A stretch of DNA of 7,178 bases, taken from contig JAUWXV010000193.1 of the NCBI GenBank assembly GCA_030616165.1, positions 1 through 7,178 on the forward strand, given 5' to 3'. The stretch is from a bacterium (GTDB lineage Bacteria > SM23-31 > JAUVVT01). Within the stretch, counting starts at the first letter, position 1; every line of letters starts with the position of its first letter. The translations under genes and the position numbers were made by a program. This document shows, piece after piece, positions 91-6,572 of this stretch. The notes beneath the pieces are model-generated. The model did not search any database. It was not told the origin of the DNA and saw nothing but the letters and a program-made list of their open reading frames with translations.

Positions 91-164
91 ACCTTAAAAT
101 ACAATAAAATACATCCATGAGATTCCCCAAAGGCAAAATTATAATTTTATCATCTCATAACCTC

Positions 165-170
165 AAAGAG
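165..170 (+). promoter_or_regulatory. Ribosome binding site that decides the transglycosylase start
   Basis: AAAGAG lies 6 nt before the ATG at 177. The upstream in-frame ATG at 117 has no purine-rich Shine-Dalgarno-like stretch before it. The ATG at 177 also places the membrane segment close to the N-terminus. These two points favour 177. Confidence 0.5.
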
Positions 171-176
171 ATAAAT

Positions 177-1043
177 ATGTCTTCTAAAATCCTTTTAGAT
201 TATTTAATATTGTTCTTCGGTTTTCTAATATTTACTAGTGTGATATTAAGTTCTATCCTTGCATATTATAATAAGAAGAAGATTGAAAATGAAATATCGA
301 ATTTAAACCAGCAAAAAGAATTTATCTCTAATCAATATAATAAAGTAAGTAAAGAAATTTCCAATTTCATTAAAGAGAACAGAGAAAAAAATAATTTAAA
401 AAGAATAGTTAAAAAATTAAATCCAAATGTAGACCAAGAATTTTTAGACTTGTGGACTGATATAATTTATGAAAATAAGAACTCCATAGAAGAATATTTA
501 AATCCCTGGTCAAAAATAGAACTAACTTATGCAGAATCTCCATTTTCTTTAGAGCCTGGTTCTTCAATCGTCCTTGCAGTAGTCGCTATCGAAAGCAATT
601 TTAATACAGACTTAACAAGTAAAAAAGGGGCAATGGGAATCTTCCAGATAATTTCGGATACTGCCGATGAACTCGGACTGAAGAATCCGTGGAATCCTTC
701 CGAAAACACTTTAGGTGGAATTAAATATCTGACATATCTTTTGAAGAGATTCAATAAATATAATGACCAAATTCACCTTACATTTGCATCTTACAATGCC
801 GGTCCCACGAGGGTAACCAACGAATGGATGCCAACCTGGGGGGATTCCTGGAGCCTCATATTTGAGGGACTAAGCTCTGAAAAATCTTATCGTGAAACAA
901 GAGAATACTCAATTCTCGCATATCAATTGACAACATTATTTGCCTCTGGAAAATGGGCAAATAAGGATGAATACTTCTGGATAAATTACAAAAACAACAT
1001 ACTTGCCGAAAGCAAAGATAATTTTTTTTCATTGGCTTTTTAA
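177..1043 (+). CDS. Membrane-anchored lytic transglycosylase (SLT domain, GH23)
   Basis: Predicted peptidoglycan lytic transglycosylase, cleaving the MurNAc-GlcNAc bond to leave 1,6-anhydro-MurNAc in the periplasm. With the start at 177 it has 288 residues. A hydrophobic segment at about residues 8-30 has no obvious cleavage site, so it looks like a signal anchor. It is followed by a Lys/Glu/Asn-rich coiled-coil-like stretch (about 32-75), then the SLT domain (about 120-255). Family signatures are visible: AIESNF with the catalytic Glu at 139, GAMGIFQI (151-158), SYNAGP (205-210), and the YRETREY segment (about 238-244) that closes the fold in Slt70-like enzymes. An in-frame ATG at 117 would add 20 residues but lacks a ribosome binding site. 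The gene converges on the glycosylase gene across a 67-bp gap. Enzyme class is secure; which MltC/Slt-like subfamily is not. Confidence 0.9.
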   Translation: MSSKILLDYLILFFGFLIFTSVILSSILAYYNKKKIENEISNLNQQKEFISNQYNKVSKEISNFIKENREKNNLKRIVKKLNPNVDQEFLDLWTDIIYENKNSIEEYLNPWSKIELTYAESPFSLEPGSSIVLAVVAIESNFNTDLTSKKGAMGIFQIISDTADELGLKNPWNPSENTLGGIKYLTYLLKRFNKYNDQIHLTFASYNAGPTRVTNEWMPTWGDSWSLIFEGLSSEKSYRETREYSILAYQLTTLFASGKWANKDEYFWINYKNNILAESKDNFFSLAF

Positions 1044-1110: not shown

Positions 1111-1794
1111 TTAATCATTTTTACCGTCATTATAATAACAGCATTCATCATTTAAAACACATCTTTGGCATTCAGGTTTTTTCCTGCAAATAAAATGCGC
1201 AAGATAATCTATCAAGGCATGATATTCATTAAAGAGTGGAGCATCTTTTTTGAGGTGCTCGGTAAATAATCTCTGCAGGTCAGAATATCTAATCTTTTCA
1301 TTTATAAAACCAAGCCTGCTGAAAACTCTTTTTGTATATGCATCTATAACGAATACAGGTTTGTCAAGGGCATAAAGCAGGATACTATCCGCAGTCTCCT
1401 CTCCGATTCCATTAATTTTAATCAACTGTTCCCTCAGTTCCTCTAAATCCTTCTCAGACATTCTTCCAAAACTGAAATCAAAAAGTTTAAAATACTCAAG
1501 AAAGTTCTTGATTTTTTCTGCTTTCTGGTTATAATATCCTGAAGATTTTATAATTTCCGCAATAACTTTCGTATCAGTATTAAATAAAACCTGCGGTGAA
1601 AGTAAATTTTCTCTTTTAAGATTACTGAGAGCCTTTTTTACATTTTTCCAGGATGTATTTTGCGTTAATATAGCCCCGATTACTATTTCAAAAGCGCTTT
1701 CAGCGGGCCACCAGCCTCGGGGACCGATTGAAGAATATAGTTTTTGATATATATTTATTAAAATGTCTTCTGTTACTTTTTTATATTTTTCCAT
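1111..1794 (-). CDS. Endonuclease III-related HhH-GPD DNA glycosylase (COG2231/MagIII-like)
   Basis: Predicted base-excision repair glycosylase of the endonuclease III superfamily, 227 residues, close to the usual size. The N-terminal half carries the GWWPAESAFE and GAILTQNTSWKNV signatures (about 27-52). The helix-hairpin-helix is INGIGEETAD (127-136), and the catalytic Asp is D151 in FVIDAYTKRV. Four cysteines C203-x5-C209-x2-C212-x5-C218 form the C-terminal [4Fe-4S] motif. At the position of the Nth lyase lysine (K120 in E. coli) there is E133, so a monofunctional glycosylase without AP-lyase activity is expected. Helicobacter MagIII, a 3-methyladenine glycosylase of this family, also has Glu there, and as I recall its pocket includes a matching WWP. 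The substrate is therefore more likely an alkylated base than an oxidised pyrimidine, but this is inference. It is the last gene of the tgt operon, 23 bp after the zinc-ribbon gene, with only a weak GGTG ribosome site. Confidence 0.85.
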   Translation of the reverse strand: MEKYKKVTEDILINIYQKLYSSIGPRGWWPAESAFEIVIGAILTQNTSWKNVKKALSNLKRENLLSPQVLFNTDTKVIAEIIKSSGYYNQKAEKIKNFLEYFKLFDFSFGRMSEKDLEELREQLIKINGIGEETADSILLYALDKPVFVIDAYTKRVFSRLGFINEKIRYSDLQRLFTEHLKKDAPLFNEYHALIDYLAHFICRKKPECQRCVLNDECCYYNDGKND

Positions 1795-1817: not shown

Positions 1818-3123
<1,306 letters not shown>

Positions 3124-3341: not shown

Positions 3342-6300
3342 TTAAAAATCAAATCCTATCGAAAAGAGATAATTAGGAGAAGAGAATTTATTCCCGTTAT
3401 GCAGCCATGCTACATCAAACCTTGCGAGAAAAAATAAAAATACTCCTCTTGCCCCTATTCCAAAACTCGCTGCCATATCCTCGAAGTATGTTTTTCCATT
3501 TATCTTCTTAGTTGCTCTAAACCCTTTGTGCGTTTCATAATTTGGTCTAAAAGGGTCACCAATTACCCATCTCCCAGTAGCCATATTAAAATCTTCATAA
3601 GGGTCCCATGCGCCACCTATATCCAAGAAAAGTGACCCGCGGATATGCTGAAAACCTATGGGAAGAGGCCAGCCAAGTAGAAGATATTGAATCAAAGGGA
3701 ATCTAAACTCAATATTAGTAAGAAAATATTTACTCCCTACAAGGTGGTAATAATTTGCCCCTCTTAAAGGGGTTATAAATTGTGAGAAGAATATATCTTT
3801 CAGACTATCTCGAATCTCACCAGCAAATCTCCTATTAAGCCAATTATCAATTCCACCTAAATAAAAGTTTTCCGGGTCTCTACCGAAACTTGCTCCTCCA
3901 CTTGCTCTAAAAGCAAATCCATAATTATTGCCTATTTTAAGATATTTTCTCATATCGGCATTAACCGTGGTGAACGAAAGTGTCCCATTTGTATTCTGTG
4001 TGTCCCAAATATATGGACTGAAACTCCGATTTGAAAGAGGAGGACTGGTATAGATTAAAAAGTTATACCTCGTACCATCAAGAGGAACTATTGGGAAATA
4101 GTTCGGTCCCCAGAGAGAAGTATCCTTTGTGTAAGATAAAGATAATTGAACAGATTTAATTCCTCTTGTGGGAATAGTACCATATTCATCGAAATAAGTC
4201 TGGTCAAGGTTGGAATAAATTATACCAAAATCTATCCTCGAAAACTTGTTGAAAGGTCTTGAAGCAAAAGCCTGAATCCCAAAGTTCCTTAATCTGAAAG
4301 GCATAGAAGCAACTGGCATACTAAGAAAATAGCCCGTAAAATATCTCGCATCCTGAAATATACCTACACCATAATCTATTCTACGCGGGAGATAAATGTA
4401 TTGCAAAAGATAATTGCGGTTTCTTAAATCAAAGTATAAATCTGTTCCGATAAGAATTTGGTGGTTGCCAAGAATATCTGTTATCTGAATAATACTCGTT
4501 CCCTGGATTCCAAAAAATGTGTCATATCCTGCACTGCCTGTAATTATATCGGGAGAAAACTTCAATTTATATTTCTTTATTTGATATTTATTCTTCTCAT
4601 CTCCTATCTCTTTTTTTACTGGAAGTTTTTCCTTTTCTTCTCGTTTTGGAAAAATAGATGCGTTTTTATCCCTGAGCGACCTATCAAAAATATATTTGGA
4701 CAAATTTGGAGCCTGCGGTTTGGTTTCACTCCCAAAAGCAATCAAATCTTCAACCGGCTTTTCTGTTTTCTTTTTATCCTTTTCTAATTCATCAAAATAT
4801 ACTGTATTTTTTAGTTGTATCTTTTTGGAATCAATGTTCTGGGGATTTTTTATCATATATATATCATACCCCATATTTGAAAATGAAACAAAAACCAGTT
4901 TAGAACCATCTTTGGACAAACTCAACTGCTCGCAACCTGTTAATGTATTGGTGATGGGTCTTGATTCTTTGGTTTCAAGGTCAATAAGAAAAATATTTGA
5001 AATTCCATTTTTTAAAGCAGTATAAACAATCACTTTGCCATCAGGTAACCAAACGGGATAATCCTCATCATATTCTGTATTGGTTATCCTCTCCATATCT
5101 GTTCCATCTCCATTTACAACATAAACGTCCCATTGATTGTAATTAAATTCATGTATCCTGTAATCATCGTTAATCATTTCCTTTCTGGTATAATCTCTCC
5201 TGTCAGAAATAAAAGCAATCTTTTTCCCATCTGGAGACCAGGATGGTTGTTTGTCAGAAAAAATATCGTCAGTTATTTTTCTTAATTTTTTAGTAGAGAT
5301 ATTGTAAGAATAAATATCCGAAAAACCATCTTTATTACCAATAAAAGCAATTTCATCGCCGTTTGGAGACCATTCTGCACCAAAAACTCCATCCAGTCCA
5401 AACTTAAACTGTCTTGTGCTCTGACTTTTTACATTTACAATATAAAGAGCATCCTCCTCACCACTTTTAGCTGAAAGTGCAATATTTTCCCCATCGGGAG
5501 ACCAACTCATACCGGGAGCAAGTACGTGCATTTCTTCAAAGTCCGCATTTTTCTGTCCTCTTATTACATCGCTTAAAATCTTCCCATCTATCGCAGACAT
5601 CACATATACATCAAAATAACCGCCTTTATCAGAAATGAAAGCGATTTTATCACCTCCCGGAGACAAAGCAGGGCTCATATTATAAAAATTTTCCATCTCT
5701 TTATGGTCAGTGAGTCTGTTTGAAAATTCTTCAGGTTTCTTTCGGTCTGCAATATCCGGCCAGTATCTCCTGCGTGCATACAAAGCCCATTGTTCCATCA
5801 GTTCTTCGTAATCCATCCCGAATGCAGATTTCAATCCCCTGTCAACACTGCTTGTCTGTTTTAATCTTTGAACAAATTCACCGACCTTTTCCTTTCCATA
5901 TTTATCCGCAATATAGTGAAAAATCAAATTCCCTCCCCAGTAGGGATTGTAAACTTCTCCACCATACTCAAGATATCCATTTATGGTAGCATCTCTGTTA
6001 AACATATCTGTTTCGGTGTTCCATCCTGTAGATTCATATTCAGCGAGCCCTTCTGCAATCCATAAAGGAATCTGAAATACTGAGGCAGTGTATATCGAAC
6101 TGGGAAACATTCCGCCATAAAACATATCAAACATAACTGCATGAGTTAATTCATGATGAATCACATGCCTGAACTGACTATACGAACCTTCGTAAGGTAT
6201 TACGACCCGGTTCTTGAATGCCTCCGTGACACCTCCAACTCCCTCTTCTAAATACTCTGCTATAACATTGGTCTGTTGAAAATCATTATGAGAGTTGTAA

Positions 6301-6572
6301 ACTATTATCGGGACTCTACCTTTTAATTTATATCTCCAACCATTTTCAATTTGAACTAATGCTGCCTCTGCTACCTCTGCAACAAATTCTGCAATTCTTT
6401 CCCCACCTTTATAAAAATGTACATCAAAATGAGAAGATTGAATATAATACCACTCAAAGCTTTTATATTGAACCTTATTCTTACCAAAATACTGTGCAGA
6501 TATATCTTCATTTGATAATAAAAACATTAATATCGACACAAATACAAAAAAATAATTTTTAACATATCTCAT
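3342..6572 (-). CDS. Outer-membrane fusion: MA-clan metallopeptidase, PD40 beta-propeller, BamA/D15-like barrel
   Basis: A 1076-residue exported protein. Residues 1-26 form a signal peptide (basic start, hydrophobic 8-20, ISA-Q cleavage site). Residues about 38-275 are a gluzincin peptidase domain: H140-E-L-T-H144 plus E174 in AEGLAEY as likely third zinc ligand. Residues about 295-575 hold six TolB/PD40-type propeller repeats with the SPDG-x-x-IAF-x-SD pattern, clearest near 301, 357, 401, 445, 508 and 552. The fourth carries an extra loop (about 458-480). Residues 576-668 form a Lys/Glu-rich linker. From about 670 alternating aromatic strands resemble the bacterial surface antigen (D15/BamA) barrel, ending in Phe as outer-membrane barrels do. 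The likely topology is peptidase and propeller in the periplasm with the barrel in the outer membrane, or the soluble part displayed outside. Substrate is unknown. No POTRA domain is seen, so it is not BamA itself. GGAGG precedes the ATG. Confidence 0.88.
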   Translation of the reverse strand: MRYVKNYFFVFVSILMFLLSNEDISAQYFGKNKVQYKSFEWYYIQSSHFDVHFYKGGERIAEFVAEVAEAALVQIENGWRYKLKGRVPIIVYNSHNDFQQTNVIAEYLEEGVGGVTEAFKNRVVIPYEGSYSQFRHVIHHELTHAVMFDMFYGGMFPSSIYTASVFQIPLWIAEGLAEYESTGWNTETDMFNRDATINGYLEYGGEVYNPYWGGNLIFHYIADKYGKEKVGEFVQRLKQTSSVDRGLKSAFGMDYEELMEQWALYARRRYWPDIADRKKPEEFSNRLTDHKEMENFYNMSPALSPGGDKIAFISDKGGYFDVYVMSAIDGKILSDVIRGQKNADFEEMHVLAPGMSWSPDGENIALSAKSGEEDALYIVNVKSQSTRQFKFGLDGVFGAEWSPNGDEIAFIGNKDGFSDIYSYNISTKKLRKITDDIFSDKQPSWSPDGKKIAFISDRRDYTRKEMINDDYRIHEFNYNQWDVYVVNGDGTDMERITNTEYDEDYPVWLPDGKVIVYTALKNGISNIFLIDLETKESRPITNTLTGCEQLSLSKDGSKLVFVSFSNMGYDIYMIKNPQNIDSKKIQLKNTVYFDELEKDKKKTEKPVEDLIAFGSETKPQAPNLSKYIFDRSLRDKNASIFPKREEKEKLPVKKEIGDEKNKYQIKKYKLKFSPDIITGSAGYDTFFGIQGTSIIQITDILGNHQILIGTDLYFDLRNRNYLLQYIYLPRRIDYGVGIFQDARYFTGYFLSMPVASMPFRLRNFGIQAFASRPFNKFSRIDFGIIYSNLDQTYFDEYGTIPTRGIKSVQLSLSYTKDTSLWGPNYFPIVPLDGTRYNFLIYTSPPLSNRSFSPYIWDTQNTNGTLSFTTVNADMRKYLKIGNNYGFAFRASGGASFGRDPENFYLGGIDNWLNRRFAGEIRDSLKDIFFSQFITPLRGANYYHLVGSKYFLTNIEFRFPLIQYLLLGWPLPIGFQHIRGSLFLDIGGAWDPYEDFNMATGRWVIGDPFRPNYETHKGFRATKKINGKTYFEDMAASFGIGARGVFLFFLARFDVAWLHNGNKFSSPNYLFSIGFDF

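Follow-up and report, generated by a model that had tools for sequence, protein, structure and literature searches.

Organization of the locus and sequence features of the gene

We analysed a stretch of 7,178 nucleotides (the window), whose genes and features are collected in Table 1. An earlier note on this DNA had placed an open reading frame at positions 3342-6572. This proved right, with the gene on the minus strand and with a residue numbering in which E141 is the glutamate of HExxH. The frame is intact, with an ATG start, a GGAGG ribosome-binding site just 5' of it and no internal stops. Scanning for promoters and terminators gave promoters at chance level and no useful sites.

Table 1. 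Positions of genes, domains and motifs in the window (residue numbers refer to the window protein)
Feature	Position	Strand	Basis or remark
Whole open reading frame, type A member: peptidase, TolB-like propeller and Omp85 barrel	3342..6572	(-)	1076 aa
Signal peptide, residues 1-26, MRYVKNYFFVFVSILMFLLSNEDISA, Q27 next	6495..6572	(-)	Read from the sequence
Conserved segment FGKNKVQYK, residues 29-37, right after the signal peptide	6462..6488	(-)	Alignment
Predicted gluzincin metallopeptidase domain, residues 26-292	5697..6497	(-)	PF13485 and fold
HELTH zinc motif, residues 140-144	6141..6155	(-)	H140, E141, L142 and H144 invariant, 79/79
EGLAE, residues 174-178	6039..6053	(-)	E174, G175 and E178 invariant, 79/79
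Predicted six-bladed TolB-like propeller, residues 298-581	4830..5681	(-)	PD40 and TolB fold
Linker, residues 591-665, poorly conserved, partly disordered	4578..4802	(-)	Mean identity of 0.14 to homologues
Predicted 16-stranded Omp85 barrel, residues 672-1076, C-terminus SIGFDF	3345..4559	(-)	Model, BamA match, PF01103 in homologues
L6-type motif P935-L936-R937-G938, equivalent of Omp85 VRGF/LRGY	3759..3770	(-)	Between strands 11 and 12
tgt, tRNA-guanine transglycosylase, 227 bp downstream of the window gene, same strand	1972..3114	(-)	Neighbour
SLT-type lytic transglycosylase	117..1043	(+)	Other gene in the window
HhH-GPD DNA glycosylase, endonuclease III group	1111..1794	(-)	Other gene in the window

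The signal peptide claimed in the earlier note could be read directly from the sequence. Its region appeared in the AlphaFold2 model as a helix of low pLDDT (residues 2-15) and varies among homologues. In at least 40 of 77 homologues, Ala-Gln immediately precedes the FG motif at the cleavage site (residue 27), and this resembles the Gln after signal peptide cleavage that is reported as typical of Bacteroidetes (PMC5837995).

Homologues numbering 79 align to the window protein over its whole length with 38-48% identity. Because H140, E141, H144, E174, G175 and E178 are invariant in all of them, chance is excluded. Among the three folded modules, conservation is highest in the peptidase, which averages 0.51 identity to the window protein, compared with 0.44 and 0.40 for the other two. 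Within the linker, the pLDDT of the model falls below 50 at residues 606-649.

Predicted structure of the three modules

The whole chain was modelled by AlphaFold2 on the alignment of the 79 full-length homologues, and structural comparison of the modules was done with VIA-align. The model reached a mean pLDDT of 84.6 and a pTM of 0.85. It contained the peptidase, the propeller and the barrel in a single chain, as the earlier note had proposed, and counting gave six blades and 16 strands. From the model, the fold matches and the Pfam results, all three modules are taken to be real. Their order and the likely activity are likewise supported by predicted fold and by conservation.

Pfam placed PF13485 (Peptidase_MA_2) on residues 68-264 (45.0 bits, cut-off 32.4), while the M48 family PF01435 had no match in the window protein at E 0.1. 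Both PF13485 and PD40 were matched in all 40 homologues scanned. The HELTH and AEGLAEY core, described earlier as intact, is so indeed, and E174 is presumed to be the third zinc ligand. The spacing from H144 to E174 is 30 residues in 73 of the 79 sequences and 29 in the other 6. Folded alone, the peptidase domain gave a pLDDT of 81.9. A gluzincin fold was found around HELTH, with a Z of 16.3 to the M9 collagenase 8jt1_A (226 residues aligned, rmsd 3.9) and of about 13 to M1 aminopeptidases. The M9 and M1 enzymes thus have the fold and the HExxH...EG motif in common with the window peptidase at about 12% identity, although they carry other accessory domains and, unlike the window protein, no outer-membrane barrel. 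Since every homologue of the alignment keeps the HExxH and EGxxE residues, loss of activity is very unlikely, and from these motifs the domain would be expected to bind zinc and to act as a peptidase.

The propeller was matched by PD40 with an E value of 2.7e-30. Six repeats of the PD40 type had been claimed; six blades are present in the model, whereas Pfam recognises 3-4 repeats. Comparison with TolB gave a Z of 28.8 and an rmsd of 2.1 over 244 aligned residues, and S9 peptidase structures matched the propeller as well. TolB of the Tol-Pal system is likewise a six-bladed propeller, 25% identical over the aligned residues, but it has neither the peptidase in front of the propeller nor the barrel behind it. 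A TolB orthologue was ruled out by this architecture and by the NCBIfam score (140.7 bits, equivalog cut-off 343.15).

As for the barrel, its 16 strands span residues 672-1072 in the model, in line with the claim of a C-terminal barrel ending in Phe and with its expected start after residue 670. It matched BamA of D. radiodurans with a Z of 25.0 (316 residues aligned, rmsd 4.2). The Pfam matches anticipated in the earlier note were obtained for the peptidase and the propeller, but the Omp85 family PF01103 was not matched in the window protein; it was matched in 8 of the 40 full-length homologues (best E value 3.2e-15) and in a type B paralogue (36.9 bits, cut-off 24). POTRA had no Pfam match in the window protein or in the 40 homologues. 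In the L6-type motif, R937 and G938 were invariant in a 40-row alignment, and BamA of F. johnsoniae has LRGY at the L6 position (PMC12611786).

Distribution and lineages of the family

The earlier note had called for a survey of the architecture across phyla. At least 581 relatives were found in a scan with one genome per species; the best 80 belong to Ignavibacteria, Calditrichota, KSB1, Marinimicrobia, Zixibacteria, Kryptonia and related groups. In a profile search, strong matches (E <=1e-60) were obtained in 45 of 145 sampled bacterial genomes, nearly all of which come from different families.

The genome of the window holds three family members, namely the window gene (C196), C216 and C79. 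In a FastTree tree of 85 proteins, in which long branches are present, a branch with support 100 sets off the C79-like proteins (type C), and a clade with the same support unites 11 proteins similar to C216 (core type B). The window protein grouped with its type A kin. As the labels A and B were assigned by which search had found a locus, and some divergent B-labelled rows fall among A, only the core clades are reliable. At least three old lineages make up the family, and their conserved neighbours differ. This uncharacterised architecture is both ancient and widespread.

The segment that follows the signal peptide differs between the lineages, as FGKNKVQY is nearly invariant in type A, occurs in type B and is missing from type C. 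G30 and N32 are invariant in the 77 alignment rows covering the segment, for which a role in binding a partner or the active site is possible.

Gene neighbourhood of type A

The tgt gene next to the window gene also adjoins the type A gene in locus L140, and in Marinimicrobia it lies nearby on the downstream side, after RadA. Because the window shows tgt and is cut upstream by the contig end, an envelope link of type A rests on relatives and paralogues. Ignavibacteria-type loci have the order HldE kinase, HldE nucleotidyltransferase, AsmA/TamB-like gene, RNase R and type A, with RNase R at its exact position in 25 loci and the AsmA/TamB-like gene, two upstream of type A, in 23. In 18 members, the AsmA/TamB-like gene was identified by DUF748 (14), AsmA (8) and TamB (2). 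Type A is followed by MlaE and an ABC ATPase (MlaF) in Calditrichota-type loci and preceded by MurA in Zixibacteria-type loci. For some lineages the association of type A with envelope genes is real, but it is not uniform. Its neighbours differ by lineage, and general housekeeping clusters, in which RNase R, HldE and prs are present, may explain them.

Several smaller observations were made at these loci. A small conserved gene of 180-240 aa occupies +1 or +2 of type A in 16 Ignavibacteria-type loci (L052, L055, L075, L078, L107, L113 and others); some of its products are lipoprotein-like with a C-terminal helix, and one member had no Pfam match. In several KSB1-type loci (L041, L059, L163, L166), type A is followed by a protein about 430 aa long with a GWxTD domain. 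On one contig titled Caldisericaceae (L044), the type A gene is followed by MlaE and the ABC ATPase in exactly the Calditrichota order, and this contig is probably misbinned.

The AsmA/TamB-like gene upstream in Ignavibacteria-type loci had prompted the idea of a TamA substitute. This was not adopted because the genome of the window has other Omp85 proteins and encodes TamB on a different contig, from which the window gene is absent. Further Omp85 proteins of this genome are C170, C328, C339 and C296; judged by eye only, C328 resembles the patatin type (PlpD-like), and C170 and C339 resemble POTRA-bearing ones.

Gene neighbourhoods of types B and C

At 9 loci a gene for a BamB-related PQQ-type lipoprotein adjoins type B or lies one gene off, whereas no such neighbour occurs at any of 49 type A or C loci. 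The lipoprotein reached up to 269.6 bits with TIGR03300 (cut-off 285) and exceeded the cut-off of PF13360. Of these nine loci, eight have a protein in the tree, each of them within the core clade of 11 rows. The loci with the lipoprotein gene, immediately downstream or separated by one gene, are L133-L136, L142-L145 and L147. The lipoprotein gene is often followed by one for a protein of 220-270 aa, of which the L133 copy had no NCBIfam match.

Genes for PorV and an M6-like protein lie directly upstream of type C at 11 loci, which come from the class of the window and from further bacterial families; at several of these loci the gene before the two encodes PorU. The genes usually next downstream of type C are DUF5683-like, a reading of the sequences made by eye alone. 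NCBIfam scores at one such locus were 823 bits for PorU (cut-off 420), 261 for PorV (cut-off 250) and 630 for the T9SS-dependent M6-like protein (cut-off 600). In the tree, a single clade of 14 rows contains all 11 of the type C loci with PorV. The array (PorU)-PorV-M6-like-type C-DUF5683-like was seen with C79 itself (L126, 6019-15986) and in L128, L130, L182-L184, L186-L189 and L191, which cover several families.

PorU scored above the cut-off in 25 of 45 family-bearing genomes compared with 2 of 100 others, one of these two carrying type C, and the Fisher values for this co-occurrence are not independent evidence because shared ancestry explains part of it. Outside classical Bacteroidota, the type C protein may be an accessory of type IX secretion that has so far gone unrecognised. 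Taken together, the gene neighbours indicate a link with biogenesis of the outer membrane and with type IX secretion, which the earlier note had not proposed.

Proposed function and alternative explanations

We consider it moderately probable that the window protein is a zinc endopeptidase of the outer membrane that faces the periplasm, carries its own Omp85 barrel and serves in assembly, quality control or maturation. The analysis shows the architecture, the predicted folds, the conserved catalytic residues, the wide distribution and the neighbours of the paralogues; zinc binding, activity, periplasmic side, clients and biological role are what we infer from them. The chain would be exported by Sec, after which a separate BamA would probably insert its C-terminal barrel into the outer membrane. 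Both ends of an even-stranded Omp85 barrel are in the periplasm. The N-terminal protease and the propeller would then be left in the periplasm beneath the barrel, where the propeller might dock clients or partner machinery as a binding or gating platform. Zinc would be held by H140, H144 and E174, with E141 as the general base, and the gluzincin site would cut proteins that arrive at the outer membrane or are stuck in it, for quality control or maturation. The barrel would tether the protease where assembly takes place, and its seam may serve to engage clients. In favour of this reading are the conserved catalytic residues, the folds of the three modules, the envelope genes beside many relatives, and the precedents of PlpD and BepA.

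The genome of the window encodes elsewhere a BamA-like Omp85 protein, TamB and two M48 peptidases. The niche of quality control could therefore be filled, and because the genome has those proteins too, the window protein is not a simple replacement of any of them.

A bolder form of this proposal, which we hold only tentatively, is a new family of outer-membrane assembly proteases that would unite an active Omp85 insertase or translocon with a zinc endopeptidase in one molecule. Such a family would have split early, with B belonging to BAM with a BamB-like partner, C to the type IX system and A to lipid or TAM-like transport.

Among the alternatives, a translocase with a built-in processing protease is unlikely but fares best. 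Here the barrel would export or insert a dedicated substrate and the peptidase would trim it en route, in a two-partner-like manner or as part of a secretion machine. Characterised Omp85 barrels do translocate or insert proteins (PMC4104836, PMC11116518), and type C sits within the PorU-PorV-M6-type C-DUF5683-like array. A dedicated substrate gene, however, is not constant beside type A; moreover, POTRA is absent, so that a guide for the client is missing, and the pore is putative.

Somewhat less likely again is a general periplasmic or nutritional peptidase with the barrel as an anchor only. The predicted peptidase fold is collagenase-like, and PD40 propellers gate the active site in S9 peptidases, whose structures the propeller matches. 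Yet the many invariant positions of the barrel, including the RG of the L6 motif, exceed the needs of a plain anchor, and the deep conservation together with the old paralogues linked to BamB and PorV is unlike a nutritional enzyme.

It is improbable that the barrel carries the peptidase and the propeller to the cell surface, as in a type Vd-like autosecreted protease. Such was the first model for PlpD, but that model was overturned and the PlpD enzyme domain stays in the periplasm (reviewed in PMC11116518); in the window protein, the peptidase and a folded propeller some 280 residues long would have to cross a 16-stranded barrel. Topology and the PlpD precedent favour a periplasmic over a secreted protease. 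Finally, a catalytically dead scaffold that uses the peptidase fold for binding only was rejected as extremely unlikely on catalytic-residue conservation, as HExxH and EG are kept in 85 of 86 members across the three lineages, the 86th being cut at a contig end.

For proteins annotated as "Tol transporter", the preferred reading of a periplasm-facing endopeptidase offers testable hypotheses on how many diderm phyla might police or mature their outer-membrane proteins.

Comparison with known systems

Heinz and Lithgow (2014) distinguished ten Omp85/TpsB subfamilies, among them WD40-Omp85, whose propeller is most like TolB and for which a scaffold role as a BamA-BamB-like fusion was proposed (PMC4104836). 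As in the window protein, a TolB-like propeller lies N-terminal to an Omp85 barrel and POTRA is absent. The fusion of propeller and barrel has thus been known since 2014 and matches WD40-Omp85 by architecture. The earlier note, by treating the two as usually separate partners, understated this. The window protein differs by its N-terminal peptidase, of which the main text on WD40-Omp85 describes none (PMC4104836).

The 'Metallo' Omp85 subfamily suggests by its name a metalloprotease joined to an Omp85 barrel, as in the window protein, and is defined by PF00149 (PMC4104836). As Pfam describes PF00149 as a calcineurin-like phosphoesterase, this subfamily does not have the window architecture, and PF00149 had no Pfam match in the window protein. 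The 2024 PlpD paper lists the WD40-like and metalloprotease Omp85 subfamilies as still uncharacterised (PMC11116518). In the open-licence main texts searched, we found no described function and no account of the exact three-part architecture or of the three linked lineages, which agrees with the earlier note.

PlpD, a patatin-like Omp85 protein, also has an enzyme domain N-terminal to the barrel, but combines a patatin lipase with POTRA where the window protein has a metallopeptidase and a propeller (PMC11116518); the patatin domain had no Pfam match in the window protein, which has the predicted gluzincin fold instead. BepA, an M48 protein of E. coli, is a periplasmic HExxH peptidase that works with an Omp85 machine and degrades stalled clients at BAM (PMC8423444, PMC13067283). 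It offers a functional parallel only, since it belongs to another peptidase family, has a TPR domain and is a separate polypeptide.

Several Omp85 subfamilies of 2014 are still without known function, and an apparently active protease is now added to the WD40-like architecture, with gene order linking two lineages, one to BamB-like genes and the other to those of type IX secretion. Compared with these known systems, what appears new is the N-terminal peptidase on a WD40-like architecture, its wide distribution and the three lineages with neighbours of their own.
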